Positions 1 through 32,006 of a stretch of DNA of 64,000 nt are shown here, piece by piece. The DNA lies in assembly GCA_007833815.1 (NCBI GenBank), contig CP033464.1, positions 3,900,001-3,964,000 on the forward strand, given 5' to 3'. A program made the position numbers and the translations under genes. This DNA comes from Brevibacillus laterosporus (lineage in GTDB: Bacteria > Bacillota > Bacilli > Brevibacillales > Brevibacillaceae). The notes beneath the pieces are model-generated. The model searched no databases. It was given only the letters and a program-made list of their open reading frames with translations, and was not told the origin of the DNA. Numbering within the stretch: position 1 is the first letter of the stretch; the number at the start of each line of letters is the position of its first letter.

Positions 1-3000
1 TTAGCAACCAAAGTTGTTGCTCGTAACGAGTGTCCTCCCACTTCAAAGAAGTTCTCTTTTACTCCTATGCTTGAGAGACTGAGTACTTCTTGCCAAATCA
101 ATGCCAATTTAGCTTCAACTGATGTGCGAGGGGCCACATATTCTTTTCCGCTTTGAATGCTTCCCTCAGGCGCAGGTAACGCTTTGCGATCAATTTTTCC
201 ATTCGAAGTAAGTGGCATTTGCTCCAATTGTACAAAATATGATGGAACCATATACTCAGGCAACACATGAGTTAATGCTTTTCTAAGTTCACTTACCTTC
301 AGCTGCGTTTCAGAAACAAAGTAGGCGCATAGCTGATTTTGTCCAGCTTCCTCCTCTTTTACAATGACGGTAGCTTCTTGAATCGGTGCTAGTTTCGTCA
401 TCTGTGCTTCCACTTCGCCAAGCTCTATGCGATAGCCCCGAATCTTCACTTGATGATCAATACGACCTACATATTCGATATTGCCATCTGGTAGCCATCT
501 TGCTAAGTCGCCTGTTCTGTACATCCGTTCTTCTGCTACAAATGGGTTATCCACGAATTTCTCCGCTGTAAGCTCCGGAAGATGTAAATATCCTCTAGCT
601 AAACCAGCTCCCGCAATGCATAGCTCTCCTGCTACTCCTATCGGCTGAAGCTGATTGTGAGGGTCTACGATATAGACCTGCTTATTTGCGATCGGTGCTC
701 CGATGGAGAGTTCCTGATCCGCATGTGTAATCGATAGAGAAGTAGTGACTACACTGCTTTCTGTAGGACCGTATTCGTTGCAAATTTCAATGTACGGATT
801 CATTTCCGTCACTCTCTTAACTAACGCCGAAACGATATTCTCTCCGCCGACAACGATATTCTTTACTGACTGCAAATCTTCGGGATTCATCGTATCCACG
901 ATACTCCATAAGAAGCTAGGTGAGCTTTGCAGATGCGTAATGCTCTGTTGCGTAATAGCTTTTTTAATAGCAACAGGGTCTTTGCTTTCCCCATCTGGCA
1001 ACAAATACACTGTTGAACCAGATACCAATGGACCAAACAAGTGTGTAAGAAATGGATCAAAGACAAATGGAGTAACCATCAGCACCCGGTCGTTTCCAGT
1101 AAATCCATACGTATTTGCTTTCCAGTGAATCGTATTAGCTATACTTGCGTGTTCAACCATAACGCCCTTAGGCTTGCCAGTGGTTCCAGAGGTGTAGATG
1201 ACATAGGCCAAGTTGTTCGGTCCATGTATCGGCTCCAGATTTGATCGCTCCTCTTGATAAGTCGCTTTATCGTCTAGAAGCACAAGCTTATCAGCAGCAA
1301 AGAAGGAAACTTGCTCTTGCAACTGATGTTGCGTAACTACCAACTGCACTCCTGCATCTTCTAGCATGTAACGGATACGTTCCTCTGGGTATTCTGGGTC
1401 AATCGGTACATACGCCCCACCAGCCTTCAAGATTCCAAGCATACCGACAATCATCTCTAAGGAACGCTCGGCCATAATGGCAACCAATTGATCAGCTTGT
1501 ACACCTTTCACTCGTAAGCTTCTAGCTAGTTGATTTGCCCGTTCATTCAATTCAAGATAGGTCATTTGCTCAGCTTCATATACAATTGCCAGTTGGTCTG
1601 GTGTGCGCTCCGCTTGCTGTTCAAACAATTGTTGGATCATGTACTCCTGAGGATAAGCAACTGCTGTATGGTTAAATACCTCGACGATTTGCGCTTTTTC
1701 TTGTTGTGTTACTAATTCAACCGCATTTACAGCAACAGCCGGGTTATTGATCACTTGCTGCATGACGTGAACAAAATGTCCCAAAATCCTCTCAACGCCC
1801 GTTTGATCATACATAGACGCATTATACTCAATGTGGATTCTAATCTCTTCACCAGGGATAACAATGAGATTAAAGTCGTAGTTGGTTTGCTCCACCATCT
1901 TGACGTTAGTGACCTCAAATGCCGTTTCGTCATCTTTTCCTACTTGCTCCATCTGCTGTTCGACCGGATAATTCTCAAACACCATAATATGGTTGATCAA
2001 ATCCTGTTTTTGTTCCGTTAGTGCCTGAATCTCATAGAGCGGATGGGTGTCATATGCATGGGATGCGAGCGCTTTTTCTTGATTCTGTTTCAGTAAGTCG
2101 GTGAAAGTGGCTGTTTCTTTGCAATGGATACGTACTGGGATCGTATTGATGAACAAGCCAATCATGTTCTCAACGTCCCGAATATCCGCTGGTCTACCCG
2201 AAACAACACTTCCAAAGACGACATCATCGGTTCCATTGTACTTTTGAAGCATCAAGCCCCAAACGGTCTGCATGAGTGTATTGATCGTAACCTGCTGTTG
2301 TCTTGCTACTGTATTCATCTGTAGCGTCAGTTCTTTACCTACATCGCAGAAGCTAGTCATGAATACCTGCTCTTCCACTTTGCTAGACGACTGTGCTTTT
2401 GGCACCATCGTTTGTTGATCGTATCCTGCCAAATAGTTGCTCCAATAGCTAGAGGCTTCCTTACTGTCTTGGCGTTCCAGCCATTCAATATAGGCACTAT
2501 ACGGAGATACTTCGGCCAATTGCGGTGCTCTTTGTTGCTGAATGGCAAAGTAACATTCAAACACCTCTGAGGCGACCAGCGATAAGCACCAGCCATCCAT
2601 CAAAATATGATGGGAGCTCCAGATAAGTTTGTAGTCTTCTTCCCCAATACGAAGAACCGACACGCGCATCAATAAATCTTGGCTTAAATCAAAGCCTGTT
2701 TCCTTGTCTTTCTTGATGAAGGTATCGATGTAAGGCTTCCGCACTTCGTCATTCATCGCCATCAAGTCTTCGTAGTAAAGCGCGCTGTCTTTTTCTCGAT
2801 ATACCACTTGTAGCGGCTGCTCTTTCCATCCGTTGTAGAAATTCGTTCTAAATATTTCATGTCTTTGGAACAGCATTCGTAAGCTCGTTTCAAAAACCTC
2901 AACATTGAAACGTCCACTTATGTCAAACGTCGTTTGTTCAAAGTAAGCCCCAGACTGCGGGTCCATCAAGCTATGGAACCACATTCCCTTCTGCATAGGC

Positions 3001-3090
3001 GTCATCGCGTAAATATTTTCGACTTCACCTACCTGGGTGGTCTGTTCTACGATCTGTTCTAGTTCCTCAACCGTCAGTCCTCGTAACAAG
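1..3090 (-). other. NRPS module 8: C-A(X, same as module 3)-T, cut by window edge
   Basis: The C motif HHILMDGWC is near 2605. The A domain has FDPFLTHLFG near 1050, ITHLQSSPSF near 930 and NIVVGGENI near 855, so the pocket residues are identical to module 3 (DPTQIVEVV). The carrier motif FFEVGGHSLRA lies at about 25-57, and the window ends a few residues later. The GGHSL type predicts no epimerase next, so an L residue is expected and further modules follow outside the window. Confidence 0.75.
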
Positions 3091-6000
3091 ACATCACTTG
3101 GCGTTAATTCCGGACGTTCCTTGGCTACGCAGTGCGCCACTACTTCACGGAGGCTTGCTTGTAGCAATTCAGCTAGCTTCTCCATCGTCTCCCTCTGATA
3201 CTCTTTACCACTGTAGTTAATTTCAAGCGATAAGGCACCTTCCGAGATTAAACCGTTCATGTCAAGTGTATACGGCATAGATGCGTTTTGGCTGGTTTCT
3301 GCGCCACTCGCAAATGGTGATAGCTGAATGTCATTGTTTTGCAAGTCCTGGTCAAACTGCCCCAAATAGTTAAAGCTGATCTCTGGCTCTGTAAAAGCTA
3401 CACCTTCGCTTCGCTCTGATAAATATCTTAGAATGCCGTAACCAATTCCCTTTTGTGGAATGTGGCGAAGTTCTTCCTTAACACTCTTGATTCGCTGGGA
3501 CACATGTTTACCTGCATGCATCTCTAGAACGACTGGGAATTGACTTGTAAACCACCCCACTGTTCGGGTGATATCCATGTCTTGAAGGATTGACTCGCGT
3601 CCGTGACCTTCCAGACTCACATGAATTTGTTCTAAGCCTGTCCAAGAATGGATGGCCATACCAAGTGCTGTGAGCAACAAATCATTTACTTCTGTATTGT
3701 AGGCACGATTCGCTAGTTTCAGTAGCTGCTCCGTTTCCTGGGCTGTCCAATGCACCATAATAGACTGGCTATCTTTCATGATCGAAATAGCTTGGGTGTT
3801 ATCTTTTGGCAATCGAGTCATTGGAATTTGTCCAAGCTTTTGCCAATACTCCCGTTCATGCTCCATTTCATCTGAATTAGCATAAAGAGCCAATTGGCTT
3901 GCCCACGTCTGGAATGAATCTGTTTTGTGCGGGAAGCAAATTTCTTCTCCGCTCAATGCTTGCTCATACCCAGTCGCAATATCTTCGAACAGAATACGCC
4001 ATGAAACTCCATCTACGACCAAGTGGTGAAGAATAATCAACAAATGATCACCATTTGTGCAACGGAACAATCCTAGTTTCATAAGCGGTCCTTCACCTAT
4101 GTTCATGCTGCTTTGCAATTCGCTTGCTTTTGCTTCCACCGCTTTAGCACCATCGGTTACATCCCTGAAATCAACAACTTCCAGGCTGTACAGTTCGCCT
4201 TCCTCTACTCCACGGTTCCATGCCTTATATCCGCTTTCGGTTGGAGTATATACCGTCCTCAATGCATCATGGTGCCAGGCAATCTTTTGCATCACCTTGT
4301 GAAGTGCCTCTTCATCAAAGCCTTGCTCTTTAAACAACATGACGGTTTGGTTATAGTGATGCTGTTCTGTATAAGCCTGCTCGAAGAACCAACGCTGAAT
4401 CGGTGTCAATCCCACTTCGCCTACTACTTCGCCTTGGTCTGCGATACGAGTGATCGATTGAACACGTTTGCTCAATTCAGCAACGGTTGGATACTGGAAC
4501 AAATCCTTCATTTCCAGCTTATATCCTGCCTGGAACAAGCGTGAAGAAACCTGAATGGATTTAATAGAGTCACCACCAAGATCAAAGAATTTATCCATGA
4601 TCCCAATCGCGTCTGTTCCCAGTACAGCCTGCCAAATCGAAACAAGTGTTTTTTCAATCGGTGTGCGTGGCGCTACGTAATTTGCACCAGTTTGGACACT
4701 TCCTTCTGGAGCAGGTAATGCTTTGCGGTCGATTTTACCGTTTGGTGTAAGCGGCATCTGATCCAATTGGACAAAGTAGGACGGGATCATGTACCCTGGC
4801 AATTCTTGAGACAAAGTGCTTCTAAGCTCGCTTAGAGTAAGCGTTTTGTTCGCTACAAAATACGCGCATAACTGCTTTAATCCAGCTTCATCTTCGCGGG
4901 CGATGACCACAGCCTCTTGCATGAATGGTGTCTTCAAGAGCTTTGTTTCGACTTCCCCTAGTTCAATTCGATTTCCACGAATTTTCACTTGGTGGTCGAT
5001 TCGTCCAATATACTCAAGGTTTCCATCCGACAACCATCTTGCCAAGTCTCCTGTTCTGTACATTTTCTCTCCCAATGCAAACGGGTTATCCACGAATTTT
5101 TCCGCCGTCATTTCTGGACGGTTTAAGTAACCGCGTCCTACACCGTTTCCAGCAATATACAACTCGCCTAGAACACCCACAGGTAAAATAGCATGGTTCT
5201 CATTTAACACGTACATTTTTACGTTAGGCAACGGTTTACCTATAGGTAAACTCAACGCTGGCAGAGCATCGGACTGTTCGAAATAACTAGAATCAATGCA
5301 CGCTTCCGTTACACCGTAGCTGTTTAAAATACGCATATGCGAACCAAATCTGCTTACCAATTGGGCAAAGGCATCTGGAGGACATTGATCTGACCCTACA
5401 ATTAATGTTTTCAAGGAACGAATGTCCAAGCTGTTTTCGTACACATACTCCATTAGTGGAATAGCGATAGCTGGCGTAGATTCAAAAATCGTAATTCCAT
5501 GTTCTCTCATAAGTCCATAGATACGAGTAGGATCTAACCTAGACTGGCTAGGGCAAATCACTAATTTCCCACCATGTAAAAGAGCTCGAACATAATCACC
5601 CGTAAATACGTCAAAGGAAAAACTGGCCCATTGCAACAATCTCACTGACTCTTCATCTAAACGGTAGGCTTGCTTCCAAGCAGAAGCGATAGAAGTTACC
5701 TGCTTGTGCTCTATCATGACACCTTTTGGCTTGCCCGTTGTTCCTGATGTATAGATGACATAAGCAAGATTATTCGGATTCGATGCTGCTTGTAGATTTG
5801 ATCCATCTTGACTATAGGAGTCTGAATCATCTAGCATCACGATTTTTCCAGTAAAGGATACTCGCTCAAATAAATGACTCTGCATGATCAATAGTTTTGC
5901 TCCAGCATCCTCTAGCAGATAGCTGATTCGCTCTTCTGGATATTCAGGATCAATTGGCACATACGCACCGCCAGATTTGAGAATTCCCAATATCCCAACC

Positions 6001-24000: not shown

Positions 24001-27000
24001 ATTTCATTTGCTTTCTTCTCAATCGCTTTGGAGCAATCTATTACTCCTTTGAGGTCAATAACTTCAAGAGTGTATAGCTCCCCTTCGTCCACTCTGCGAT
24101 TCCGTGCCTGGTATCCATTCTCAGTCAGAGTAAATACCATCCGCAAAGCGTCATGATGAGAAGCAACCTTCTGCATAACCTCACAAAGCGCTGTCTCCAC
24201 AAACCCTTCTTTGCGATACAACATGAACGCTTGGTTAAAATGATGATGCTGTTCGACCTTCATCTGTTCAAAGAACCAGCGCTGTATCGGTGTAAGAGCT
24301 GTTTGACCCTCTACTTCCCCTTGATCTGCTATTTTGCTAACCAATTGAAGCTGTGGGCATAGCTTTTCTATTGTTGGATATTTAAACAAATCCTTCATTT
24401 CCAGCTTGTATCCAGATTGAAGTAATCTAGAAGAGACTTGGATTGCTTTGATTGAGTCTCCTCCTAGATCAAAGAAATTATCCAAGATACCCATTTTCTG
24501 ACTTCCTAAAACAGTTTTCCAAATGGATACCAACAATTGCTCCACTTCTGTCCGAGGAGCTACATATTCCACTCCGGTGTGCATGATTTCTTCAGGTGCA
24601 GGTAGCTCTTTTCGATCAATTTTCCCATTTGAGGTAAGCGGCATTTGCTCCAATTGCACAAAGTAAGACGGAATCATGTAAGTAGGTAGTTCATGGGATA
24701 ATTCGCTTCTGAGTTCGACCATACTCAGCTGGGTTTCAGCAACAAAATAGGCGCATAAATGCTTTTGCCCTGCTTCATCTTCCCTCGCTATGACAATAGC
24801 TTCTTGAACCGAATCTATCTTCAACAGCTGCGCTTCAACCTCACCAAGCTCAATACGGTATCCACGGATTTTTACCTGATGATCAATTCGGCCCAAATAT
24901 TCAATGGTACCATCTGACATCCATCTTGCCAGATCGCCCGTTCTGTACATCCGCTCGCCTTCTCTAAAACGGCTATTCACAAATTTTTCTTCTGTAAGTT
25001 CTGGCCGATTCAAATACCCTCGTGCTAACCCTTCCCCAGCGATGCATAGCTCGCCTGGAACACCGATAGGTAGTAAATGACCGTCTGCATCTACAATGTA
25101 GATCCGATGGTTTTTAATAGGACTTCCGATAGGAACAACTTTCTCAGACATGGAATCCTTGTCATAAGACCATACAGATGAGCAGATTGAATCCTCTGTT
25201 GGACCATAGGCATTAAAATATGACACATGATCTTTCCATTTCTGTACTAATTCAACAGAAGAGGCAGACCCAGCAGTGATCAACGTTTTTAAGCTAGGCA
25301 TATTGCTTGGCTCCAGATAAATTGCATAAGTAGGAGGCAAGGCCGCAACAGTAATTTGATTTTTTGTGATATAGTTTTCAAACAAACGGTAATTCATAAT
25401 GACGGAAGTAGGAGGTATAAATAATGTTCCACCACAAATAAAAGCTTTAAAGAACTCTGCGCATGCAGCATCAAACGACATGCTGGCAAACTGCACCGTT
25501 CTATCTTGGGCGCTCAGGTTCAAATTGTATTCAAAATACGTTTTTAAATTGCACAGACCGTGATGCTCAACCATGACACCTTTTGGTTTGCCCGTTGTTC
25601 CAGATGTGTAAATAACATAAGCCAAATCATTAGGTCCAGTGATTGGTTCTACATTGGTATCGTCTGCGCTGTACACTTTCTCATCATCTAGCATTAGGAG
25701 TGTTCCCTCGAAGGAGATACGCTCCTGCAAATGACTTTGAACCATCAACAGCTGTGCACCAGAATCCTCCAGCATATAACGAATACGCTCTTCCGGGTAT
25801 TCTGGATCAATAGGCACATAGGCCCCTCCAGCTTTTAATATCCCAAAGATACCAACTATCATTTCTAAAGAACGTTCTACCATGATGCCGACTAATTGGT
25901 TTGCCTGAACTCCCTTTGCTCGTAGGGTCCGTGCTAGTTGATTTGCTTTCTCGTTTAATTCACGATAGGTCAATTGTTCATCTTCATAAACGACCGCCAC
26001 TTGATCCGGAGTTTGCTCCGCATGTTCTTCAAACAACTGGTAAACCGTTTTCTCGCGTGGATAGTTCGCTTGAGTATTGTTGAATACATCAACAATCTGC
26101 GTTTTCTCTATTGGTGTCACAGCTTCTAGTTCGTTTACGCGAGCATCTGGATTGTCTACAATCTGCTCCAGCATATGAACAAAGTGCATCCCGATTCGCT
26201 CAACACTCGCTTCATCATATACCAGAGCATTATATTCCAATAAAAGCTTCGTCTCTTCGCCCGGTATTACAGCTATATTGAAATCATAGTTTGTTTGTTC
26301 CGTTACTTTTACATCTACAATTGTGTAGCTGGCTTGTTTACCAATTCCCAATTGTTCCATTTCATGTTCCACAGGATAATTCTCAAACACCATGATATGG
26401 TTAATTAAATCTTGTTTTTGTGCAGTCAGACCTTGAATGTCATAGAGAGGATGCGTATCGTACGCATGCGATTCCAGTGCTTGCTCCTGCACTTTTCGCA
26501 ATACTTCTCCTAACGTTTCTTCCCCTTTACAACGAATCCGTACCGGAATAGTATTGATAAATAAACCAATTACCCCTTCAATTCCTGGTATATCTGCCGT
26601 TCTTCCTGAAACGACACTCCCAAAAACAACATCCTGATTACTGTTATATTTTTGTAATAAAATGCCCCATGCGGTCTGCATGAACGTATTAATTGTCACC
26701 TGATGTTGCTTCGCGACCTGATTCATTCGGGCAACCAGTGTCTTAGTAAGCACGTTAGTCAGCTTCTTAGCAGAGTAGCCTTCTCTGTTCTGCGGCTTCT
26801 CTTTTGGCAAGAGTGATTGACTCTCGTAGCCTGCCAAATAATTGCTCCAATATTTGGATGTATCCTCTTCATTTTGACGCTCTAACCAATCAATGTACTG
26901 GCTATAAGGCGTTACGTCTTCCAACTCAGGTTGTCTTTTTTGCAGAATGGCGGAGTAGCCTTCAAACACTTCTTTGGTCATTATTGGTAAGCACCAGCCG

Positions 27001-30000
27001 TCCATCACAATATGATGGAAACTCCAAATGAAATGATAGGTTTCTGCTGTCGTACGCAAAATCGATACACGCATCAGAGAATCTTCAGCCAGATCAAATC
27101 CTCTTGCTTTGTCTTGGCTGGTAAAGGTAGTCAGATACATCTCACGTTCTGCCTCGTCCATTTCGCGCAAATCTTCAAAGTATAGCTCACTGCTCTTTTG
27201 TCGATAAACGACCTGAACAGGATCATCTTTCCATCCACTGTAGAAGTTGGTTCTCAGTGTTGCATGCCTTTGTGTGAGGGCATCTAGACTTTTACCAAAA
27301 GTGATGACATCAAAGCTACCCTGTATTTCAAACGTTAATTGTTCAAAATAAGCCCCTGAATGTGAGTCCATCAGGTTGTGGAACAACATACCTTTTTGCA
27401 TCGGTGTCAATGAGTAAACGTTCTCAATCTCACCAATATGCTTCGTTTGTGCCACGAACCGATCAAGTTCCTCGACAGTCAGTCCTTTTAACAATAGATC
27501 GCTTGGTGTTAGTTCTACCTGCTCTTTTGTTAAGCAGTGCGCAATCACTAGTTGTAGGCTTACACGTAAAAGTTCACCTAATTGCTCCATTGTTTCTTTG
27601 CGATATTCTTTACTACTGTAACTAATTGTAAGTTTTAACGATCCATCTGTGACCATTGCATTCAAGTCAAGTGTATATTTTCTCACTGCCTGTCCACTTA
27701 CGAAAGCTCCACTTGAATGATTCGACAGTTGAAGAGCATTATGCTGTAAATCCTGATCAAATTGACCCAAATAGTTAAAGCTGATCTCAGGCTCTGCTCT
27801 GCTTATGTCTCTATCTTGAGATTGGGTTAAGTAGCGTAAAATACCATAACCAATCCCCTTATGCGGAATTTGGCGCATCATTTCTTTGACTTGCTTGATC
27901 CGTTGAGAGACACCTTGATCTGTCCCCATCTGGAGCACAACAGGATACAGACTTGTAAACCAACCTACCGTACGCGTAACGTCAATATCTTGAATAATGG
28001 ATTCGCGACCGTGACCCTCTACATTCACAAGCACTTGCTCTGTACCAGTCCAATCGTGTATAGCCATTCCCAAAGCCGTGAGCAATAAATCGTTAACTTC
28101 TGTGCTGTAAGCGCGATTTGCTTGTTTTAGCAACTGCTCCGTCTCTTGATCTGTCCATTGCACTGCTACGATTTGACTTTCCCCAATCACTGACTGTTCC
28201 TGAATGAAATCCTTTGGCAAATCTGTCTTGTCTATTTGTTCAATCTGTTGCCAATATGATTTCTCTTTTTGCAATTCTTCGCTGTCTGCATAAAGAGATA
28301 GTTCCTCGGCCCACTTTTGGAAGGAATCCGTTTTTTGTGGGAAGCTAATTGCTTCACCTTTTAGGGCCTGTTCATAACCACTCGCGATATCTTCAAATAA
28401 AATTCGCCACGAAACGCCATCAACTGCCACATGGTGAATGACAATCAGTAGGTGGTCCCCTTCTTGACATTGGAACAGTCCCAGCTTGATAAGTGGACCT
28501 TCTGTTAGAGCAATACTACTCTGAATTTCATTTACTTTGGTCTCAATGGTTTGGGTGCAGTCTGTTTCGCCTCTCAAATCAATCACTTCAAGACTATACA
28601 GCTCACCTTCCTCTATTCCTCGATACCATGTTTCGTATCCACTGTCTGACTCACGGACTGCTATGCGTAATGCATCATGATGAATGGCGATCTTTTGAAT
28701 GACCTTGCGAAGTGCTGTTTCATCAAAACCTTTTTTCATGAAAAGCATGAAAGCCTGGTTATAATGATGCTGTTCAACTAATTTTTGCTCAAAGAACCAG
28801 TGCTGAATCGGCGTCAGTAAGGCAGCCCCCACTACCTCACCTTGATCAGCAACTTTCGTAATAAGTTGAATATGTCGACTTAATTGTGCAATGGTTGGAG
28901 AGGTGAACAAATCCTTCATTTCCAGCTTATAGCCCGCTTGAAGCATCCTAGAAGAGATCTGGATAGACTTAATGGAGTCTCCTCCTAGATCAAAGAAATT
29001 ATCTAAAACACTAATTTTCTTAGCTCCTAGTACAGCCTGCCAAATGGATACCAATGTTTGTTCCATAGCCGTGCGAGGTGCAACATATTCTACACCTGTT
29101 TGGATACTTTCCTCTGGTGCTGGTAGAATTTTACGATCAATCTTTCCATTTGGAGAAAGTGGCATTTTATCCAATTGCACAAAATAGGATGGAACCATAT
29201 ACGTAGGTAGCTCTTGGGAGAGTTCGGCTCTTAGCTCACCTACAGTTAGTTGCTTGTTCGCTATGAAATACGCACACATTTGCTTCTGGCCGTTTGCATC
29301 TTCTCTAGCAATAACCACTGCTTCTTGTATGGCTTCCAATTTCAATAGCTGCAATTCGACTTCGCCAAGCTCAATGCGGTAGCCACGGATTTTTACTTGG
29401 TGATCAATCCGACCCAAATATTCAATGTTTCCATCCGGTAGCCATCTTGCCAAGTCTCCCGTTCTATACATTCGTTCTCCCGGTACAAACGGATTTTGCA
29501 CAAATTTCTCTTCCGTAAGCTCCGGTCGATTCAGGTACCCTCTTGCTAACCCGACCCCAGTAATACATAACTCACCTGCTATCCCGATCGGCTGTAGGTA
29601 CTCTGAGTCAGCCTGCACAATGTAGAGTTGGGTATTAAAAATGGGTTTACCAATTGGGATGATAGCGAGTTGCTCATCTGCATGACAATCAAAATACGTA
29701 ACATCGACAGTAGCCTCAGTTGGTCCATATAGATTGATCAGCCTTGCTTGACTTACTGATGAAACCGCTCGCTGGAATCTGTCAACATGCTGTGGAGGCA
29801 AAGCTTCTCCACTCGCAAATACTTGACGTAATGAACCAAGTTTTGCCTTTACGATCTCACTTGGCTGTTGTTCAACATGATCCAAGAAAGCGTGCAACAT
29901 TGCCGGAACAAAATGCATTGTTGTAATGCTATGTTCAGCTATTGTCTCTAAGATTCGCTCAGGGTTCTTCTCTCCTCCTACAGATAGAAGGCATACTTTG

Positions 30001-32006
30001 GAACCCACCATCGACCACCAGAATAGCTCCCATACCGACACGTCAAATGTAATCGCTGTTTTTTGTAGAATAGTGTCGGTTGCTGAAATAGGGTATTTTG
30101 TTTGCATCCACATCAGTCGATTGATAACCGAGTGGTGTTCGATCATGACCCCTTTAGGCTTGCCTGTAGATCCTGATGTATAAATGACATAAGCTAAGTG
30201 ATTCGGTCCATTTACCGCTTCCAGATTCGAACTCTCTTGGCAATAGTTTTCAGCATCATTTATATCTACCATTTTCCCAGCAAAAGAGACTCTATCCAAC
30301 AAATGATGTTGTACCAAGAGTAGTTTTGCTTCCGAATCCTCTAACATATAGCGGATTCTTTCCTCTGGAAATTCCGGGTCAATTGGTACATATGCACCGC
30401 CTGCTTTTAATATCCCAAAAATTCCAACCATCATTTCCAAGGAACGTTCTGTCATGATTCCGACTAATTGGTCTGCTTCTACTCCTTCAGCACGCAACTT
30501 TCGCGCTAACTGATTCGCTCTTTCATTTAATTCCCGGTAAGTAAGTTGTTCCCCTTCACATATTACAGCTACTTGTTCTGGTGTACGTGCTGCTTGTTCT
30601 TCAAACAGTTGGTGAATCAGCTTTTCACGTGGATAGTCGGCTAGTGTATTGTTGAATACAGATAAAATGTTATTTTTCTCTTCCTCGCGAAGTAAGGATA
30701 TGTCAGCTATTTTTGAAATAGGATAATGAATGATTGTTTCAATAATGGTAAAGAACTGCTGAACAAGCTGCTCGATCTCCTCTTCTGTAAACAACTGTGC
30801 GCGATAATTAAGCTGAAACAAGATTTTTTGATTATCTACCCCATCAATCACATTCATTTCAAAATCATTAATGACATCCCCACAAAAGTTCTCGTTAACT
30901 TCAATTTCAGCATTTTCATACTGCAAATAATTCATTGGGCGGTACTGTACAGAAACGCCAAATAAACGCTGTAGATCCTTGTGTTGATGTGTTTCTCGCA
31001 AGTCTTCCATTATTTTGTTGTATGGAAATCTTTGATGGCGCAGGATCGAAACCTGTTCTTTTGACACAACTTGCAAGAATGAAAGCAGGTCCATATCGGG
31101 ATCTACGAATACTCTAGTTGGTACTGTACTAACGAACATACCTATCATTTCTTTTTCTTTCTTTGTTGTTCTGTTCGCATAGAATGTACCTATAGACACA
31201 TCATTCTGAGTTGTTTTTTTATGCATGTAGATGTAGATAGCAGCCATAAACACGGTTAACATACTGCTATTGGTTTGTTTGCAAACCTCTTGCAGGTTAT
31301 TATACATGCTGTCTTCTAAGATAATATTTTTCCTTTTTCCAGCCGTACTTAAGGTAAGAGGATTGTATGATTTAGCCCCTATTACTTCAGGCAAGGTTCT
31401 GAATTTGTCCAGCCAATATGCTCTATCTTTTTGATAGCGATCAGACTCTTCGTAATCTTGCTCTGTCTGTATAAATTCAAAATAAGAATGATTCTCTGAT
31501 ATTTCTAGAATCGTACCATTTGTTATGTCGGAATAGTATTCATTCACTTGATTTATGAGCATTCTCGCAGAGATTCCATCGGTTACAATATGATGAATTT
31601 TGACATTGTACCAATATTCTTGGTCGCTAATCTTGCAAATGATAAATTGATATAAATCTGAATGAAAAAGTTCAAAGGGTGTTCTATTATGATGATCCAG
31701 CCGTTCCAACGCTTGAGCTTCGCCATCAGCACTTGAAAAATCCAAACATTCAAACGTTTTGTCAATATGCTCTTCCACATATTGTTGAGGATATCCGTTT
31801 TTAGCAGTTATTCTAATTCGAAAGGCATCGTACTGTCGAATAACCATATTTAAAGCTTGTTGTAAAGCGTTCAGTCTGATATTACCTTTCATTTTTATTG
31901 TCAATGAAATCGTCGAGACACCCGTGTTCGGATAAAGTAATTCAGAATACCATATCCTTTGTTGAGGCTGAGTCAACGAAAATAATTGAATCAAATCCTT
32001 ATTCAT
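1..32006 (-). CDS. Giant lipopeptide NRPS, eight modules visible, 3' end outside window
   Basis: One uninterrupted minus-strand frame runs from ATG at 32006 to base 1 (10,668 codons, still open). The start is supported by AGAGGTG about 7 bases upstream. The order read from signature motifs is C-A-T-E, C-A-T-E, C-A-T-E, C-A-T-E, C-A-T, C-A-T, C-A-T-E, C-A-T. Carrier-protein serine motifs (GGDSIK or GGHSLRA) fall near 28985, 24465, 19915, 15365, 10805, 7705, 4580 and 35. The 4.5 kb spacings contain an epimerase and the 3.1 kb spacings do not. All C (HHxxxDG) and E (HHxxVDGxSW) motifs I read are intact. The opening C domain with no loading module implies N-acylation by a fatty acid. The D/L pattern D-D-D-D-L-Gly-D-L and the three Orn pockets resemble brevicidine/laterocidine (recalled family knowledge). 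No thioesterase is seen, so the assembly line continues past base 1. Two ABC transporter genes precede it on the same strand. Confidence 0.95.
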   Translation of the reverse strand, partial: MNKDLIQLFSLTQPQQRIWYSELLYPNTGVSTISLTIKMKGNIRLNALQQALNMVIRQYDAFRIRITAKNGYPQQYVEEHIDKTFECLDFSSADGEAQALERLDHHNRTPFELFHSDLYQFIICKISDQEYWYNVKIHHIVTDGISARMLINQVNEYYSDITNGTILEISENHSYFEFIQTEQDYEESDRYQKDRAYWLDKFRTLPEVIGAKSYNPLTLSTAGKRKNIILEDSMYNNLQEVCKQTNSSMLTVFMAAIYIYMHKKTTQNDVSIGTFYANRTTKKEKEMIGMFVSTVPTRVFVDPDMDLLSFLQVVSKEQVSILRHQRFPYNKIMEDLRETHQHKDLQRLFGVSVQYRPMNYLQYENAEIEVNENFCGDVINDFEMNVIDGVDNQKILFQLNYRAQLFTEEEIEQLVQQFFTIIETIIHYPISKIADISLLREEEKNNILSVFNNTLADYPREKLIHQLFEEQAARTPEQVAVICEGEQLTYRELNERANQLARKLRAEGVEADQLVGIMTERSLEMMVGIFGILKAGGAYVPIDPEFPEERIRYMLEDSEAKLLLVQHHLLDRVSFAGKMVDINDAENYCQESSNLEAVNGPNHLAYVIYTSGSTGKPKGVMIEHHSVINRLMWMQTKYPISATDTILQKTAITFDVSVWELFWWSMVGSKVCLLSVGGEKNPERILETIAEHSITTMHFVPAMLHAFLDHVEQQPSEIVKAKLGSLRQVFASGEALPPQHVDRFQRAVSSVSQARLINLYGPTEATVDVTYFDCHADEQLAIIPIGKPIFNTQLYIVQADSEYLQPIGIAGELCITGVGLARGYLNRPELTEEKFVQNPFVPGERMYRTGDLARWLPDGNIEYLGRIDHQVKIRGYRIELGEVELQLLKLEAIQEAVVIAREDANGQKQMCAYFIANKQLTVGELRAELSQELPTYMVPSYFVQLDKMPLSPNGKIDRKILPAPEESIQTGVEYVAPRTAMEQTLVSIWQAVLGAKKISVLDNFFDLGGDSIKSIQISSRMLQAGYKLEMKDLFTSPTIAQLSRHIQLITKVADQGEVVGAALLTPIQHWFFEQKLVEQHHYNQAFMLFMKKGFDETALRKVIQKIAIHHDALRIAVRESDSGYETWYRGIEEGELYSLEVIDLRGETDCTQTIETKVNEIQSSIALTEGPLIKLGLFQCQEGDHLLIVIHHVAVDGVSWRILFEDIASGYEQALKGEAISFPQKTDSFQKWAEELSLYADSEELQKEKSYWQQIEQIDKTDLPKDFIQEQSVIGESQIVAVQWTDQETEQLLKQANRAYSTEVNDLLLTALGMAIHDWTGTEQVLVNVEGHGRESIIQDIDVTRTVGWFTSLYPVVLQMGTDQGVSQRIKQVKEMMRQIPHKGIGYGILRYLTQSQDRDISRAEPEISFNYLGQFDQDLQHNALQLSNHSSGAFVSGQAVRKYTLDLNAMVTDGSLKLTISYSSKEYRKETMEQLGELLRVSLQLVIAHCLTKEQVELTPSDLLLKGLTVEELDRFVAQTKHIGEIENVYSLTPMQKGMLFHNLMDSHSGAYFEQLTFEIQGSFDVITFGKSLDALTQRHATLRTNFYSGWKDDPVQVVYRQKSSELYFEDLREMDEAEREMYLTTFTSQDKARGFDLAEDSLMRVSILRTTAETYHFIWSFHHIVMDGWCLPIMTKEVFEGYSAILQKRQPELEDVTPYSQYIDWLERQNEEDTSKYWSNYLAGYESQSLLPKEKPQNREGYSAKKLTNVLTKTLVARMNQVAKQHQVTINTFMQTAWGILLQKYNSNQDVVFGSVVSGRTADIPGIEGVIGLFINTIPVRIRCKGEETLGEVLRKVQEQALESHAYDTHPLYDIQGLTAQKQDLINHIMVFENYPVEHEMEQLGIGKQASYTIVDVKVTEQTNYDFNIAVIPGEETKLLLEYNALVYDEASVERIGMHFVHMLEQIVDNPDARVNELEAVTPIEKTQIVDVFNNTQANYPREKTVYQLFEEHAEQTPDQVAVVYEDEQLTYRELNEKANQLARTLRAKGVQANQLVGIMVERSLEMIVGIFGILKAGGAYVPIDPEYPEERIRYMLEDSGAQLLMVQSHLQERISFEGTLLMLDDEKVYSADDTNVEPITGPNDLAYVIYTSGTTGKPKGVMVEHHGLCNLKTYFEYNLNLSAQDRTVQFASMSFDAACAEFFKAFICGGTLFIPPTSVIMNYRLFENYITKNQITVAALPPTYAIYLEPSNMPSLKTLITAGSASSVELVQKWKDHVSYFNAYGPTEDSICSSVWSYDKDSMSEKVVPIGSPIKNHRIYIVDADGHLLPIGVPGELCIAGEGLARGYLNRPELTEEKFVNSRFREGERMYRTGDLARWMSDGTIEYLGRIDHQVKIRGYRIELGEVEAQLLKIDSVQEAIVIAREDEAGQKHLCAYFVAETQLSMVELRSELSHELPTYMIPSYFVQLEQMPLTSNGKIDRKELPAPEEIMHTGVEYVAPRTEVEQLLVSIWKTVLGSQKMGILDNFFDLGGDSIKAIQVSSRLLQSGYKLEMKDLFKYPTIEKLCPQLQLVSKIADQGEVEGQTALTPIQRWFFEQMKVEQHHHFNQAFMLYRKEGFVETALCEVMQKVASHHDALRMVFTLTENGYQARNRRVDEGELYTLEVIDLKGVIDCSKAIEKKANEIQSSINILEGPLMKLGLFQCVDGDHLLIVIHHLAVDGISWRILFEDLATGYEQVKNGAAIQLPQKTDSFQMWTEQLSLYANSEAMENEQKYWQQIEQMNMPLLPKDYAQAKKLVQDSEIVTVQWTEQETEQLLKQANRAYATEVNDLLLTALGMTIHAWTGMEQVFVNLEGHGRESIIADVDITRTVGWFTSQYPVVVEVQAGRNLSQKIKGVKEGLRHIPKKGIGYGILRYLSTLQGNVVFEVEPEISFNYLGQFDQDYQHNEMQLSPYSVGEAVSELIEMKTALNINGMISNGRLEMSIRYSDKEYNKETIEQVASLFQESLRDVVAHCVAKKSTELTPSDVLLAELSIEELDRLVEQTQEVGEVENVYELTPMQKGMYFHSLMNPHSGAYFEQTTFDLTGSFDLTAYAKSLDAWVQRHEALRTNFYNGLKDQPVQVVYRHKNGELHYEDLREMDMATRNSYIATYKSEDKARGFDLAHDSLIRVSILRTEEEKYHFIWSFHHMVMDGWCVSIMTKEVFGGYIAIRENRQPEYAALTPYSHYIEWLGRQDRESASSYWSEYLAGYEQQTLLINEKKHGKDSQAEGYVATKLNCTFSKELTKRLNQTAKQNQVTINTLMQTAWGIMLQKYNNHHDAVFGSVVSGRPADIPGVENILGLFINTIPVRIRCEAEETVAEVMRKIQEQALASNAYDTYPLYDIQALTEQKQDLINHIMVFENYPMEQQIEQLGSTGQSKFEIGNIDTVEQTNYDFNLIIMPGEEMGICYGYNTLVFDRASIEKIQGHFVHIVEQITSNPHQCVSELELVTATEKEQILAMFNDTKATYPQDKMLHQLFESQVERTPDQVAIVCEESKLSYRELNERANQLARTLRMKGVKADQLVGIMAERSLEMIVGMLGILKAGGAYVPIDPEYPQERISYMLEDANVTLFVSQRHLQDRVSFTGTLVLLEEETSYQTDGSNLEPIHGPKDMAYVIYTSGTTGKPKGVMVQHASIVNTILWKADTYQFSMEDHVLMVTPFVFDPFLTHLFGPLVMGSTVYLLPDEESKDHEAIKKAITQQKITHLQSSPSFLWAMVETMNPQDLQSVKNIVVGGEKIVSALVRKVAELNPNIEICNEYGPTESTVVTTSLSITQPEQELSIGKPIANKRVYIVDQHNQLQPVGVAGELCIAGAGLARGYLHLPELSAEKFVDNPFASEEKMYKTGDLAKWLPDGNIEYLGRIDHQVKIRGYRIELGEVEAQLLRVDSVREAIVIAREEEDGQKHLCAYFVADKQLTVGDLRSELSQELPSYMIPAYFMQLEQMPLTTNGKIDRKALPAPEGGVQTGVEYVAPRTSVEQTLVSIWQAVLGSQQIGILENFLDLGGDSIKAIQVSSRLLQAGYKLEIKDLFKYPTVAQLSPHLQLVSKIADQREVVGAAKLTPIHHWLFEQKSAEPHHFNQAVMLYQKQGFDEMVLRQVMQKIAEHHDALRMVFPMTSDGYEAWNRGVDEGELYSLEIIDLKDEVELAQVIEAKANEIQSSINITEGPLMKLGLFKCAEGDHLLIVIHHLAVDGVSWRILFEDIAAGYEQVLSGQEIRLPQKTDSFQTWAEQLSYYANSQTMGAERAYWNQVEQTKLIPLPKDHIQKKSLVRDGEIITVRWTEQETEQLLKQANRAYNTEVNDLLLTALGIAIHAWTGTEQVLVNLEGHGRESIIPDVDITRTVGWFTSQFPVVLKTNASRNVAQQIKTVKEGLRQIPQKGIGYGILRYLSEPQEGMTFRVEPEITFNYLGQFDQDLQRNAMQFSPYSSGAAVSQDKERRYTLDMNGLISGGVLELTIGYNGKEYRQETMKHVAELLRSSLQAVIEHCVAKERTELTPSDILLKGLTVEELERLVEDTQHIGEIENVYPLTPMQKGMYFHSLMNPLSGAYFEQTTFDLIGSFDVIAFGKSLDILTQRHVALRTNFYSGWKDLPVQVAYQNKRSELYYEDLRQMDKAKREAYLTTFAIEDKAKGFDLAHDSLIRVSILRTDEEGYHLIWSFHHIVMDGWCLSLMTQEVFGSYFAIRGNRQPELDDVTPYSNYIEWLANQDDAEASKYWSEYLTSYDQQTLLPKGKTQSKSEGYVAQKLTRELGIELTGRLQQVAKQAQVTINTLVQSAWGVTLQKYNDSQDVVFGSVVSGRPSEIPGIENIIGLFINTVPVRIRCKGEESFADVMSRGQEQALASQAFDTYPLYDIQRLTSQKQDLINHIVVFENYPMGQQIEQLGSSDQESFEIANIEIMEQTNYDFNLSVIPGENMDVCSEYNALVYDQEGIEQILGHFVHIMEQIADNPHIRVNELELITAGEKKHILEVFNDTATDYPRAMTVQQLFEAQVESTPDQVAVVYEGSQLTYRELNEQANQLARTLRADGVQADQLVGIMVERSLEMMVGILGILKAGAAYVPIDPEYPEERISYMLEDAGAKLLVTQSHLQERVSFTGRIVMLDDSEAYNEDHSNLEPIQGPNHLAYVIYTSGTTGKPKGVMIEHQQLTAMAQAWKLAYGLDGEHPKVLQWASFSFDVFTGDYVRALLHGGELIICPSQSRLEPASIYELLRGHKVSIFESTPAIVIPLMDYVYENKLDIDSLKTLIVGSDHCPPDAFATLLTRFGLHMRILNSYGVTEACIDSSFFEQTDSLVAMNIPIGKPLPNVKMYVLDENHVIQPIGISGELYIAGSGVGRGYLNRPEMTEEKFMDNPFVTGERMYRTGDLVRWLPDGNIEYLGRIDHQVKIRGNRIELGEVETQLLKIATIKENVVVAQEDQVGRKYLCAYFVADKKRSASELRGALSQVLPSFMVPSYFVQIEQLPLTPNGKIDRKALPVPEGNVESDIEYVGPRTAAERMLVSIWQAVLGTKAIGIMDNFFDLGGDSIKSIQVSSRLLQAGFKLEMKDLFRYPTVAQLSKHIHSVTRIADQGEVIGEVLLTPIQRWFFEQSFADQHHYNQAMMLYREEGFDETALHKVMEKITEHHDVLRMVFRASEEQYQAWNRGVGEGESYSLEVFDFKGTADCAQAIEDKANQMQASINLSEGPLLRLGLFQCEDGDHLLIVIHHLVVDGVSWRILFEDIANGYEQAVKGESIHFPYKTDSFRTWAEELSHYANSEKIELEREYWQQIEQTATTPLPKDNKQVTTFIKDIEFVTVHWTEQETEQLLKLANRAYNTEVNDLLLAALGMAIQTWTGMEQVLVNMEGHGREAILSDVDITRTIGWFTSQYPVLLQMDAAKQVSKQIKTVKEGLRQISQKGIGYGILRYLSDCEEGNRFSAEPEISFNYLGQFDQDLQNNAIELSPFSKGADMSANANMQYALDMNGMISNGALSMTIHYSGKEYHRETMEQFTELLQESLREVIAHCVTKERTELTPSDVLLQGLTVEELEQIDAQTRNIGEIENIYAMTPMQKGMWFHSLMDPQSGAYFEQTTFDVLGRFDATVFGQSLQMLFQRHEIFRTNFYNGWKDQPVQVVYQDRNRALHYEELLGMDEIERDSYIECFIEKDRATGFDLSQDILLRVSILRTGKETYRIIWSSHHILMDGWCLSLVAQEVFECYFAILQNREPKLAEVPPYSAYIEWLERQDREEASTYWSGYLAGYDQQTIVPKEKVQRKEDPVFDHRFCDLGRELTSQMNGLARQHQVTIYTLMQTVWGVMLQKYNGSQDVVFGSVVSGRPADIPDVESMIGLFINTIPIRIRSEAGATFAEVMKQSQEHALASHAYDTYPLYEIQALTEQKQDLINHIMVFENYPMEQQMEQVGGNDPSAFEIANVKIVEQTNYDFNLNVLPGEEIRVHIEYNTSVFDQTGIDRILGHFVHMMQQVINNPHVPVTELELVTAKEKEQIMGVCNNTEADSHSHQEKTVQKLFEDQVERTPNQVAIVCEGEQLTYHELNERANQLARTLRSKGIEADQLVGIMVERSVEMMVGILGIIKAGAAYVPIDPEYPEERISYMLEDASANLLVLQSHLKDRVSFTGNLVMLDDSEAYSEDGSNLEPIQGPNHLAYVIYTSGTTGKPKGVMIEHKQLTAMSHAWKLSYGLDEQNPKVLQWASFAFDVFTGDYVRALLNGGELIICPSHSRLEPANIYELINKHQVTIFESTPAIMIPLMDYVYENKLDIQSLKTLIVGSDQCPVDAFAQLLSRFGEHMRILNSYGVTEACIDSSYFEQTSSLLSLNLPIGKPLPNVRMYILDENRAIQPVGIPGELYIAGIGVGRGYLNRPDMTAEKFVDSPFVDNERMYRTGDLVRWLSDGNIEYVGRIDHQVKIRGNRIELGEIEAQLLKIDSVEEVVVIAQEDSVGQKQLCAYFVADNQLTVSDLRSTLSQELPGYMIPSYFVQLEELPLTPNGKIDRKALPVPDGSMQTGVEHVAPRTPMELSLANIWEEVLGTSNIGVKDNFFDIGGHSLRATTLVAKIHKELGLNVALRDVFSSPTIEQMAAGITGMEYRAYASIPVIEKRDFYPVSSAQKRLYILGQMEGGELSYNMPSVLLVEGPLNRASLEEAFKKLIGRHEALRTGFEMVNGMPIQRVYQDVEFEVEYGQATDEEVENIVRAFVRAFDLEKAPLLRVGLIELGVERHLLLFDIHHIVSDGASTSILIHEFVQLYRGVELSPLRIQYKDYAVWQQTEVQGQHMGKQEEYWLDVFRGEIPVLDMPTDYARPAVQSYQGDTFEFVIDEQRSNGLKQIAAQTGSTLFMVLLASYSTMLSKYSGQEDVIVGTPIAGRPHADLDSLIGMFINTLAIRTQPAGEKSFYDYVQEVKEHALKAFENQEYPFEELVEKLHVARDFSRNPLFDTMFIMQNVENEELAIEGLRFTPFADEHAVAKFDLTLNAMEEADSIRCGMEYATSLYKRETIERMAEHFLQVIDGIINDPEEKLSSLEMITSKEKAFILDTFNDTAGDYPREKTIHQLFESQVERTPEQVAVVYEGQQMTFRELNERANQLARTLRAEGVQPDQLVGIMVERSLEMMVGLLGILKAGGAYVPIDPEYPEERIRYMLEDAGAKLVVMQSQLQDRLAFAKRLLSLDEEASYHQDGSNLNPLSSSTDLAYVIYTSGSTGKPKGVMIQHQSVVNFIQGITDQIDFVQGKSLLSVTTISFDIFVLETFLSLSKGVRVVLASGVQQTDPKALRDVMVEQQIDMIQMTPSRMQMLLSSDHVDCLQDLQEIMLGGEALPTSLLEILRKNTPARLYNMYGPTETTVWSSVGEVTEGEHITIGKPLVNTRFYLLNEEGQPQPIGVAGELCIAGEGLARGYWNRSELTEEKFAENPIVPGERIYKTGDLAKWLPDGTIEYLGRIDHQVKIRGHRIELGEVETQLLHVDSVQEAVVIARRDQEGQQQLCAYFVAEQQLTVSDLKGQLSHELPSYMVPSYFVQLEQMPLTPNGKIDRNALPAPEGGIHTGAEYVAPRTWMEAKLVQIWQEVLGLTNIGIRDNFFEIGGHSLRATTLVAKIYKEINKNLPLRDAFQYPTIEQMAHVIEGMEQSAYASIPVIEESEFYPVSSAQKRLYILSQLTGGEISYNMPDIVMIEGALDQQRVEEAFRKLIARHETLRTSFEMVNGEPVQRVHQQADFAVTYAQASLEEAEDHVREFVREFDLQKAPLLRVGLIEMSADRYLLLFDMHHIISDGVSMGILIQEFARLYGGEELPPLRIQYKDYAVWQQVGVHSEQMKQQEAYWLDAFRGEIPVLDMPTDYVRPALQSFVGETIEFVIDDTGREGLKKLAARTGSTLHMVMLAAYTTLLHKYTGQEDVIVGTPIAGRPHADLEPMIGVFLNTLALRTYPSGDKSFYEYLQEVKVSALKAYENQDYPFEELVEKLNVNRDLSRNALFDTMFEFINLEQDGLHMEGLNVQPYPSENTVAKFDLTLEAIERAEGIVFTMEYATSLFKRETVERMAGHFKQVIQAIVHNPQATLSSLEMITPAEKGTILEGFNATTTDYPREKTIHLLFEEQVERSPDQVAVVYEGSQLTYRELNERANQLARTLRAEGVQADQLVGIMVDRSVEMMVGILGILKSGGAYVPIDPEYPEERISYLLEDAGAKLLIMQSHLFERVSFTGKIVMLDDSDSYSQDGSNLQAASNPNNLAYVIYTSGTTGKPKGVMIEHKQVTSIASAWKQAYRLDEESVRLLQWASFSFDVFTGDYVRALLHGGKLVICPSQSRLDPTRIYGLMREHGITIFESTPAIAIPLMEYVYENSLDIRSLKTLIVGSDQCPPDAFAQLVSRFGSHMRILNSYGVTEACIDSSYFEQSDALPALSLPIGKPLPNVKMYVLNENHAILPVGVLGELYIAGNGVGRGYLNRPEMTAEKFVDNPFALGEKMYRTGDLARWLSDGNLEYIGRIDHQVKIRGNRIELGEVETKLLKTPFMQEAVVIAREDEAGLKQLCAYFVANKTLTLSELRSTLSQELPGYMIPSYFVQLDQMPLTPNGKIDRKALPAPEGSVQTGANYVAPRTPIEKTLVSIWQAVLGTDAIGIMDKFFDLGGDSIKSIQVSSRLFQAGYKLEMKDLFQYPTVAELSKRVQSITRIADQGEVVGEVGLTPIQRWFFEQAYTEQHHYNQTVMLFKEQGFDEEALHKVMQKIAWHHDALRTVYTPTESGYKAWNRGVEEGELYSLEVVDFRDVTDGAKAVEAKASELQSSMNIGEGPLMKLGLFRCTNGDHLLIILHHLVVDGVSWRILFEDIATGYEQALSGEEICFPHKTDSFQTWASQLALYANSDEMEHEREYWQKLGQIPMTRLPKDNTQAISIMKDSQSIMVHWTAQETEQLLKLANRAYNTEVNDLLLTALGMAIHSWTGLEQIHVSLEGHGRESILQDMDITRTVGWFTSQFPVVLEMHAGKHVSQRIKSVKEELRHIPQKGIGYGILRYLSERSEGVAFTEPEISFNYLGQFDQDLQNNDIQLSPFASGAETSQNASMPYTLDMNGLISEGALSLEINYSGKEYQRETMEKLAELLQASLREVVAHCVAKERPELTPSDVLLRGLTVEELEQIVEQTTQVGEVENIYAMTPMQKGMWFHSLMDPQSGAYFEQTTFDISGRFNVEVFETSLRMLFQRHEIFRTNFYNGWKEQPLQVVYREKDSALYYEDLMAMNDEVRKPYIDTFIKKDKETGFDLSQDLLMRVSVLRIGEEDYKLIWSSHHILMDGWCLSLVASEVFECYFAIQQQRAPQLAEVSPYSAYIEWLERQDSKEASSYWSNYLAGYDQQTMVPKAQSSSKVEEQVFMTSFCDVGKELTLQMNTVARQQQVTINTLMQTVWGLMLQKYNGTDDVVFGSVVSGRPADIRDVENMIGLFINTIPVRIHCKETATFTDLLKQNQEKALASHAYDTHPLYEIQALTEQKQDLINHIMVFENYPVEQQMEQVGKDDETAFEVTNVKMVEQTNYDFNLIVIPGEEIRIHIEYNASMYDQTGVERILGHFVHVMQQVINNPAVAVNAVELVTQQEKAQIVEVFNHTAVAYPQEYMIQQLFEQQAERTPDQLAIVYEAEQMTYLELNERANQLARSLRVKGVQADQLVAIMAERSLEMIVGMLGILKAGGAYVPIDPEYPEERIRYMLEDAGVQLVVTQHQLQEQVSFFAADKLVLLDDKATYQEERSNLEPIHGPNNLAYVIYTSGTTGKPKGVMVEHASIANTIHWKANTYGFTGNDRVLMVTPFVFDPFLTHLFGPLVSGSTVYLLPDGESKDPVAIKKAITQQSITHLQSSPSFLWSIVDTMNPEDLQSVKNIVVGGENIVSALVKRVTEMNPYIEICNEYGPTESSVVTTSLSITHADQELSIGAPIANKQVYIVDPHNQLQPIGVAGELCIAGAGLARGYLHLPELTAEKFVDNPFVAEERMYRTGDLARWLPDGNIEYVGRIDHQVKIRGYRIELGEVEAQMTKLAPIQEATVIVKEEEAGQNQLCAYFVSETQLKVSELRKALTHVLPEYMVPSYFVQLEQMPLTSNGKIDRKALPAPEGSIQSGKEYVAPRTSVEAKLALIWQEVLSLSSIGVKENFFEVGGHSLRATTLVA
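3090..7540 (-). other. NRPS module 7: C-A(Orn)-T-E
   Basis: Boundaries are approximate. The C motif HHIISDG is near 7140. The A domain repeats the ornithine pocket (FDVFTGDYVRA near 5610, LIVGSDQC near 5395, LNSYGVTEACID near 5310). T has GGDSIK near 4570 and is followed by an E domain with HHLVVDGVSW near 4015, so D-Orn is expected. Confidence 0.85.
7540..10660 (-). other. NRPS module 6: C-A(Gly)-T
   Basis: Boundaries are approximate. The C domain has HHIVSDG near 10245, of the type that joins two L residues. The A domain has FDIFVLETF near 8710, MIQMTPSRM near 8580, IMLGGEAL near 8510 and MYGPTETTVW near 8430. The pocket D-I-L-Q-M-G-M-V-W(-K) is a close variant of the glycine code DILQLGLIWK. 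The carrier motif GGHSLRA is near 7705 and there is no E domain. Confidence 0.83.
10660..13870 (-). other. NRPS module 5: C-A(Orn)-T
   Basis: Boundaries are approximate. The C domain has HHILMDGWC near 13385, as expected after an epimerase. The A domain repeats the ornithine pocket DVGEIGSID(K), with FDVFTGDYVRA near 11840 and LNSYGVTEACID near 11540. The carrier motif is the GGHSLRA type (near 10805) rather than GGDSIK, and no E domain follows, so L-Orn is expected. Confidence 0.85.
13870..18430 (-). other. NRPS module 4: C-A(Orn)-T-E
   Basis: Boundaries are approximate. The C motif HHIVMDGWC is near 17930. The A domain shows FDVFTGDYVRA near 16395, SIFESTPAI near 16270, LIVGSDHC near 16185 and LNSYGVTEACID near 16100. 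The pocket D-V-G-E-I-G-S-I-D(-K) is the established ornithine code of gramicidin S and tyrocidine synthetases. T (GGDSIK near 15365) and E (HHLVVDGVSW near 14800) follow, so D-Orn is expected. Confidence 0.85.
18430..22980 (-). other. NRPS module 3: C-A(unassigned X)-T-E
   Basis: Boundaries are approximate. The C motif HHMVMDGWC is near 22480. The A domain has FDPFLTHLFG near 20930 instead of the usual FDxSVxE, then ITHLQSSPSF near 20815 and NIVVGGEKI near 20720. The pocket reads D-P-T-Q-I-V-E-V-V(-K), which I do not recognise. Module 8 has the same residues. In brevicidine-type peptides positions 3 and 8 are both Trp, so Trp is the contextual guess. The Glu at 322 would be unusual for that and leaves a basic substrate possible. 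T (near 19915) and E (HHLAVDGVSW near 19350) follow. Confidence 0.68.
22980..27500 (-). other. NRPS module 2: C-A(aromatic?)-T-E
   Basis: Boundaries are approximate. The C domain has HHIVMDGWC near 27010 (type that follows an E domain). The A domain contains FDAACAEFF near 25470, ITVAALPPTY near 25340 and LITAGSAS near 25280. The pocket reads D-A-A-A-I-A-A-I-C(-K). Positions 299-331 match the Phe/Tyr/Trp family (GrsA is DAWTIAAICK), but residues 239 and 278 are both Ala, giving a larger cavity. I call it aromatic without choosing between Tyr, Trp and Phe. T (GGDSIK, 24465) and E (HHLAVDGISW near 23900) follow, so a D residue is expected. Confidence 0.7.
27500..32006 (-). other. NRPS module 1: C(starter)-A(Ser)-T-E
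   Basis: Boundaries are approximate. The C domain carries HHIVTDG near 31590 and differs from the later C domains, fitting a lipo-initiating starter. The A domain (A3 motif near 30170) has FDVSVWELF near 30040. By alignment to GrsA PheA I read pocket residues D-V-W-H-F-S-L-V-D(-K), matching the serine code. The T domain has GGDSIK near 28985 and is followed by an E domain with HHVAVDGVSW near 28420, so D-Ser is expected. Brevicidine has Asn at position 1 (from memory), so this assembly line would make a variant. Confidence 0.82.

Follow-up and report, generated by a model that had tools for sequence, protein, structure and literature searches.

The stretch of DNA analysed here (hereafter the window) comprises 64,000 nucleotides from a Brevibacillus laterosporus genome of 5,759,703 bases (G000:C4:3900001-3964000). 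It contains most of a giant gene for a nonribosomal peptide synthetase (NRPS), which raises the question of whether its product is a new peptide or one that is already known. The sequence-only reading of the window had described eight modules in one open frame of more than 10,668 codons, with the scaffold of the brevicidine/laterocidine/relacidine family, and it had proposed a position-1 variant of this family carrying Ser in place of an Asn that it gave for all three compounds.

Organization of the Locus

The open frame starts with an ATG at position 32006 of the minus strand, and after 10,668 codons it is still open at the left edge of the window. With the flanking DNA included, this rlcC-type frame encodes 12,195 aa with a stop at G000:C4:3895419, and it is separated by a gap of 183 bases from a second NRPS gene, rlcD (Table 1). 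In Pfam searches, the protein of the whole first gene contained nine adenylation (A) and nine T domains and that of the second gene four of each plus a thioesterase (TE; PF00975) at its end with the motif GYSMG; together the two genes, whose frames are both open throughout, have 13 A domains and one TE. The terminal modules and TE that were missing from the visible part are thus located beyond the window edge (modules 9-13), and the count of 13 modules with a TE supports the family assignment. A pair of ABC exporters lies upstream of the NRPS genes and an MFS efflux protein downstream. In all three related clusters described below, the 596-aa and 598-aa exporters have homologs in the same place (82-85 and 80-84% identical, respectively), and the ABC and MFS neighbors taken together are 80-92% identical to those of this cluster.

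Table 1. Positions of the main features of the cluster (window positions, unless preceded by the genome and contig)
Feature	Position	Strand	Basis or remark
rlcC-type NRPS gene, part in window	3..32006	-	10,668 of 12,195 codons; continues for ~4.6 kb past the left edge, with module 9 and C10
First condensation domain, expected lipo-initiation (Cstarter)	30663..31979	-	PF00668; role inferred from position and from the published laterocidine pathway, as far as available
A1 core, Ser pocket DVWHFSLVD	29673..30137	-	Pocket alignment
E domain, module 1	27498..28823	-	Condensation-type match and HHxxxDG motif
E domain, module 2 (pocket DAAAIAAIC, Tyr in the relacidine/brevicidine/laterocidine family)	22971..24311	-	Condensation-type match and HHxxxDG motif
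E domain, module 3 (pocket DPTQVGEVV, Trp in the relacidine/brevicidine/laterocidine family)	18429..19754	-	Condensation-type match and HHxxxDG motif
E domain, module 4 (pocket DVGEIGSID, Orn)	13872..15206	-	Condensation-type match and HHxxxDG motif
E domain, module 7 (pocket DVGEIGSID, Orn)	3093..4421	-	Condensation-type match and HHxxxDG motif
C domain of module 8 (follows an E domain; DGWC form)	1683..3020	-	Condensation-type match and HHxxxDG motif
ABC exporter of 596 aa (rlcA or rlcB)	32628..34418	-	Pfam ABC_membrane and ABC_tran
ABC exporter of 598 aa (rlcA or rlcB)	34433..36229	-	Pfam ABC_membrane and ABC_tran
rlcD, second NRPS gene, 4,212 aa, A10-A13 and TE	G000:C4:3882597-3895235		Wholly outside the window
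rlcE, MFS exporter	G000:C4:3880906-3882357	+	Wholly outside the window

The condensation-type matches in the window follow the order C1-E1-C2-E2-C3-E3-C4-E4-C5-C6-C7-E7-C8. For the whole RlcC protein 17 such matches were obtained over three pieces, and as two of these come from domains split by piece borders, 15 domains (10 C and 5 E) remain. The epimerization (E) domains are found at exactly modules 1, 2, 3, 4, and 7, both by these matches and by the HHxxxDG motifs, in agreement with the sequence-only reading. The form of this motif that ends in DGWC is present in exactly five C domains of RlcC, each of which comes after an E domain (C2, C3, C4, C5, and C8), and these we take to be D-C-L domains. 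A Tox-GHH match in RlcC was judged to be spurious because it is located in an E domain with HHxxxDG; no stretch of it passes alone. In RlcD, to the left of the window, C13 has HHIISDA instead of HHxxxDG, the Ala being common to a laterocidine-type cluster (G005).

Six genomes of the genus, including the source genome (G000), were examined. Although rlcC already closes with a complete C10, RlcD begins with the C-terminal half of a condensation domain (first 249 aa, G000:C4:3894489-3895235; PF00668 positions 186-456). This half domain is 77-81% identical in three other clusters of the family, and the RlcD N-terminus is found at an identity of at least 77% in four of the six genomes (G000, G003, G004, and G005). 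More distant relatives (38-40%) lie close to the beginning of two Paenibacillus NRPS genes, which likewise open at an A domain. One possible role of the half domain is that of a platform or docking piece where a module is split between C and A, and among the literature matches listed there is no direct account of such an N-terminal half C domain.

Assignment of the Cluster to the Relacidines

The cores of the A domains were aligned to GrsA (1AMU), and nine of the ten specificity positions were read, the tenth (Lys517) being assumed. The pockets are, for A1-A5, DVWHFSLVD, DAAAIAAIC, DPTQVGEVV, DVGEIGSID, and DVGEIGSID; for A6-A9, DILQMGMVW, DVGEIGSID, DPTQVGEVV, and DFWNIGMVH; and for A10-A13, DGFFLGVVF, DILQMGMVW, DVWHFSLVD, and DILQMGMVY. 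The pockets A4, A5, and A7 are identical, as are A3 and A8, and the alignment bears out the Ser code in the first pocket and the Orn-Orn-Gly-Orn order at modules 4-7 that had been read earlier. We take DVWHFSLVD, DVGEIGSID, and DILQMGMVW to be the codes for Ser, Orn, and Gly, with which the published products agree; the assignments of Tyr (pocket 2) and Trp (pockets 3 and 8) rest on those products. We read modules 9-13 as Thr-Ile-Gly-Ser-Gly. Their last pocket has Tyr in place of Trp (aa 3683 of RlcD), and this change, at one of nine positions, is the only one that separates A13 from the other Gly pockets (A6 and A11); we take it to be the "position 290" of the published relacidine A13 pocket. 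The same procedure identified the cluster of G004 as brevicidine and those of G003 and G005 as laterocidine, which supports the reading method.

In the available text of PMC7818431, the relacidines of B. laterosporus MG64 are ascribed to five genes (two ABC transporters, two NRPSs, and one drug resistance transporter) with 13 modules, Ser1, and a ring of Thr-Ile-Gly-Ser-Gly (relacidine A) or with Ala as the last residue (relacidine B), whereas brevicidine has Asn1 and no residue 13, and laterocidine differs in the fatty acid and has Asn-Gly-Gly in the ring. The accessible part of PMC10111413 places the E domains of rlcC in modules 1, 2, 3, 4, and 7, and describes Tyr instead of Trp at "position 290" of the relacidine A13 pocket together with Gly/Ala mixing. 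The present cluster has the same two ABC exporters, two NRPSs (9 + 4 A domains), and one efflux gene, the same 13 modules, divided between two NRPS genes with a TE at the end, Ser1, the same five E positions, Thr9-Ile10-Gly11-Ser12-Gly/Ala13, and Tyr in the A13 pocket. All 13 pockets, in order, fit relacidine A/B, and no difference was found at the level of pockets or modules. On this match to the pockets, modules, and layout described for MG64, the locus is almost certainly the relacidine biosynthetic gene cluster (rlcA-E) of a bacterium of the B. laterosporus group. Other contigs of the genome agree with this group: for the first 10,000 of the 130,971 bases of contig C1, a B. laterosporus plasmid has an 86.7% identical place with 83% coverage, and contig C3 matches in part a B. 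laterosporus plasmid and two JNUCC-42 plasmids, whereas no match was obtained for the first 10,000 of the 60,496 bases of C2. The strain is probably not MG64 itself, since the present genome has 5.76 Mb and a size of about 5.2 Mb follows for MG64 from its ~500 kb of biosynthetic gene clusters being 9.7% of the genome.

The proposal of a new variant with Ser for Asn at position 1 is refuted. Although A1 does read as the Ser code, unlike the brevicidine-type A1 of G004 (DLTKIGEVG), Ser1 is the residue published for the relacidines as well as for laterocidine, whose exocyclic peptide is the same; the laterocidine-type clusters of G003 and G005 carry the same A1 pocket, and the remaining 12 positions likewise equal relacidine. 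The family and the D/L pattern given by the sequence-only reading hold, but Asn1 is found in brevicidine only, and as it had been assigned to all three compounds the claim of novelty falls. The relacidine synthetase is an already known system and the cluster an ordinary rediscovery; what it contributes is a further Brevibacillus genome carrying these genes and the correction of a mistaken claim to a new antibiotic variant.

We consider it rather unlikely that this relacidine-like assembly line makes a slightly different product, such as a congener arising from relaxed pockets (Phe2, or only Ala13) or one with another fatty acid. The choice of lipid is not readable from sequence, and within the text available, brevicidineB (Phe2) is made by the brevicidine producer and relacidine B has Ala13 (PMC7818431). 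However, at all nine positions read, A2 agrees with the brevicidine- and laterocidine-type clusters, and no sequence feature points to a specific departure from relacidine. Still less probable is that the cluster is silent or damaged and has ceased to make its peptide: the HHxxxDA form of the C13 motif could be taken in this sense, but the motif keeps His-His and Asp, laterocidine-type G005 has the same form, so that it looks like a family trait, and both NRPS genes are open throughout.

For a relacidine synthetase, the first C domain would load a short branched fatty acid on Ser1 (the published chain is 4-methylhexanoyl), and the line would then build acyl-D-Ser-D-Tyr-D-Trp-D-Orn-Orn-Gly-D-Orn-Trp-Thr-Ile-Gly-Ser-Gly/Ala. 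The TE is expected to release the chain by joining residue 13 to Thr9 in a lactone, as in the published chemistry, and the product would act on Gram-negative cells through LPS, as published for the relacidines.

Relationship to Other Clusters and Probable Origin of Asn1 in Brevicidine

The first genes of the relacidine, brevicidine, and laterocidine types are 85-88% identical. The brevicidine synthetase of G004, the one brevicidine-type cluster among the six genomes, has the same first-gene architecture as the window (87.3% identity over 12,198 aligned columns) and the same pockets 2, 4-9, 11, and 12, with one change each at 3 and 10; it differs in having Asn1 in place of Ser1, and 12 modules without residue 13 in place of 13. 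The laterocidine synthetases of G003 and G005 (the latter B. laterosporus MSSRFCCT15) share with the window Ser1, 13 modules, and identical pockets 1-10, their first gene being 85.2% identical, whereas they have Asn11-Gly12-Gly13 with Trp in the A13 pocket where the window has Gly11-Ser12-Gly13 with Tyr. A scan of a genome collection yielded four loci, viz. that of MSSRFCCT15 and three more distant ones from Paenibacillus. In two of the latter (L036 and L037) the gene begins with a C half before an A domain, and their two and three readable pockets, respectively, do not match the window string; the third (L038) is different, with 21% identity. The accessible portion of PMC9867215 contains no mention of relacidine, laterocidine, or brevicidine.

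A recent duplication as the source of the identical pockets of modules 3 and 8 was rejected, because their A cores are less similar to each other (74.0% identical in DNA) than each is to its own counterpart in G004 (85.0 and 86.0%) and G005 (80.1 and 82.9%). Similarly, identities within the Orn group (4, 5, and 7), Gly6/Gly13, and Ser1/Ser12 are 73-80% inside the window vs. 79-86% to the counterparts, the margin being small for Gly11 (74.6-74.7% inside the window vs. 77.5% to G004). Pairs involving G004-A1, G005-A11, or G005-A12 (47.5-50.2%) are of different specificities and provide no baseline.

When the first genes of the window and G004 were compared in bins of 100 columns, a single deep drop was observed, to 48, 36, and 27% in the bins whose first residues are 493, 593, and 693 of the window protein; the next bin is at 72% and all others at 74-100%. 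The drop corresponds to the A1 core, from ~100 aa before the A3 motif to ~215 aa after it, and the two A1 cores are 23% identical. The G004 genome also has a 6,490-aa open frame with an Asn-type module whose core matches the G004 A1 core in 153 of 155 aa. The six pockets of this donor gene (DLTKIGEV-, DLTKVGHI-, DGAHSGEVL, DAFWIGGTF, DVGEIGSID, and DGAYTGEVI, a dash marking an unsure alignment) presumably fit the Asn-Asp-Tyr-Val-Orn-Leu half of loloatin, hence our term loloatin-like; at the last pocket position its Asn module and the copied G004 A1 have the same letters. In DNA, the two cores are identical at 675 of 701 bases (96.3%) and a tract of 1,071 bases at 1,004 (93.7%), with a dip to 72-83% inside it. 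The flanks of the tract are both 47.6% identical to the loloatin-like gene (527/1,106 and 577/1,213) vs. 83.1 and 89.7% to relacidine A1. As a control, the G004 A1 core is 84.7 and 86.2% identical to the counterpart loloatin-like genes of G000 and G003, which are themselves 85.4 and 87.0% identical to that of G004. The higher identity to the gene of its own genome indicates that the copying took place after the species had separated, with the gene of the G004 lineage itself as the source.

As Ser1 is present in two of the three product types (three of four clusters), Ser1 is probably ancestral in this family and Asn1 derived. Alternatively, an older Asn1 in brevicidine could have been homogenized later. 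No published account of the copying of Asn1 was found by title or abstract among the matches listed from the open-licence literature.

Asn11 of Laterocidine and the Last Module of Brevicidine

The Asn11 core of laterocidine is also related to the loloatin-like Asn module (81.2-88.9% in DNA over 701 bases, with flanks at 42.5-53.8%). Its closest match is the G004 copy of this module (88.9%), the copy in the genome where it lies being more distant (83.2% in G003 and 84.3% in G005), and its identity to the brevicidine-type A1 core of G004 is 87.7%. It looks like a separate import, older than the event in G004.

Module 12 of the brevicidine type follows relacidine module 12 to ~200 aa after the A3 motif and module 13 from ~230 aa after it. 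The switch occurs around GELCIAGVGLARGYLNRPEL, which we take to lie near the A6 motif. To judge from this switch, modules 12 and 13 of the relacidine type have been fused within an A domain into the single last module of brevicidine. On this difference the available text of PMC10111413 reports a missing terminal module and nothing further. Loss of module 13 in brevicidine and its gain in the others both fit such a crossover, and we lean toward loss because two of the three types have 13 modules.

Taken together, it is likely that the differences in residues and ring size within this family were produced by A-core replacement and by fusion within an A domain: Asn1 through a copy of ~1.1 kb from the loloatin-like Asn module, ~174 kb away on the same chromosome, into a Ser1 ancestor; Asn11 from the same kind of module, separately and probably earlier; and the loss of residue 13 (or its gain in the others) by a crossover in the region of GELCIAG, not far from the 3' end of the Asn1 tract. 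These recombination results may not have been reported previously. The comparison locates the natural recombination cuts that changed residue 1, residue 11, and the ring size in anti-Gram-negative drug leads, and such field-tested junctions can guide NRPS engineering; they fit the exchange of A cores that is given as a general rule in the accessible part of PMC8097286.

Other Features of the Window and Genome

Beside the cluster, a 177-aa MFS piece of about half the model length is present on the plus strand (window 37919-38452; PF07690 positions 6-171 of 347 and TIGR00900 positions 211-361 of 364), and it may be what is left of a broken or rearranged gene. A 288-aa frame on the minus strand (window 41352-42218) gave no Pfam match at an E value of 0.001.

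Another NRPS cluster in the window belongs to the salicylate-thiazoline siderophore type (window 43310-63998, minus strand). One of its genes, truncated at the window edge, encodes a fused aryl-AMP ligase/salicylate synthase (TIGR03494 at 433.8 bits, above the cut-off). The cluster also encodes a 3,038-aa NRPS that includes methyltransferases, a fusion of a thiazolinyl imide reductase with a methyltransferase (TIGR01761, above the cut-off), and a terminal NRPS with a TubC docking domain, a methyltransferase, and a TE. Fusion of the ligase and the salicylate synthase in one frame appears unusual. The presence of three NRPS A domains points to three cyclized residues in the product, presumably of a kind such as ulbactin, for which a link to Brevibacillus is among the literature matches listed. 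In the genome as a whole (5.76 Mb), 111 condensation-type matches were found, which represents a very high NRPS load.
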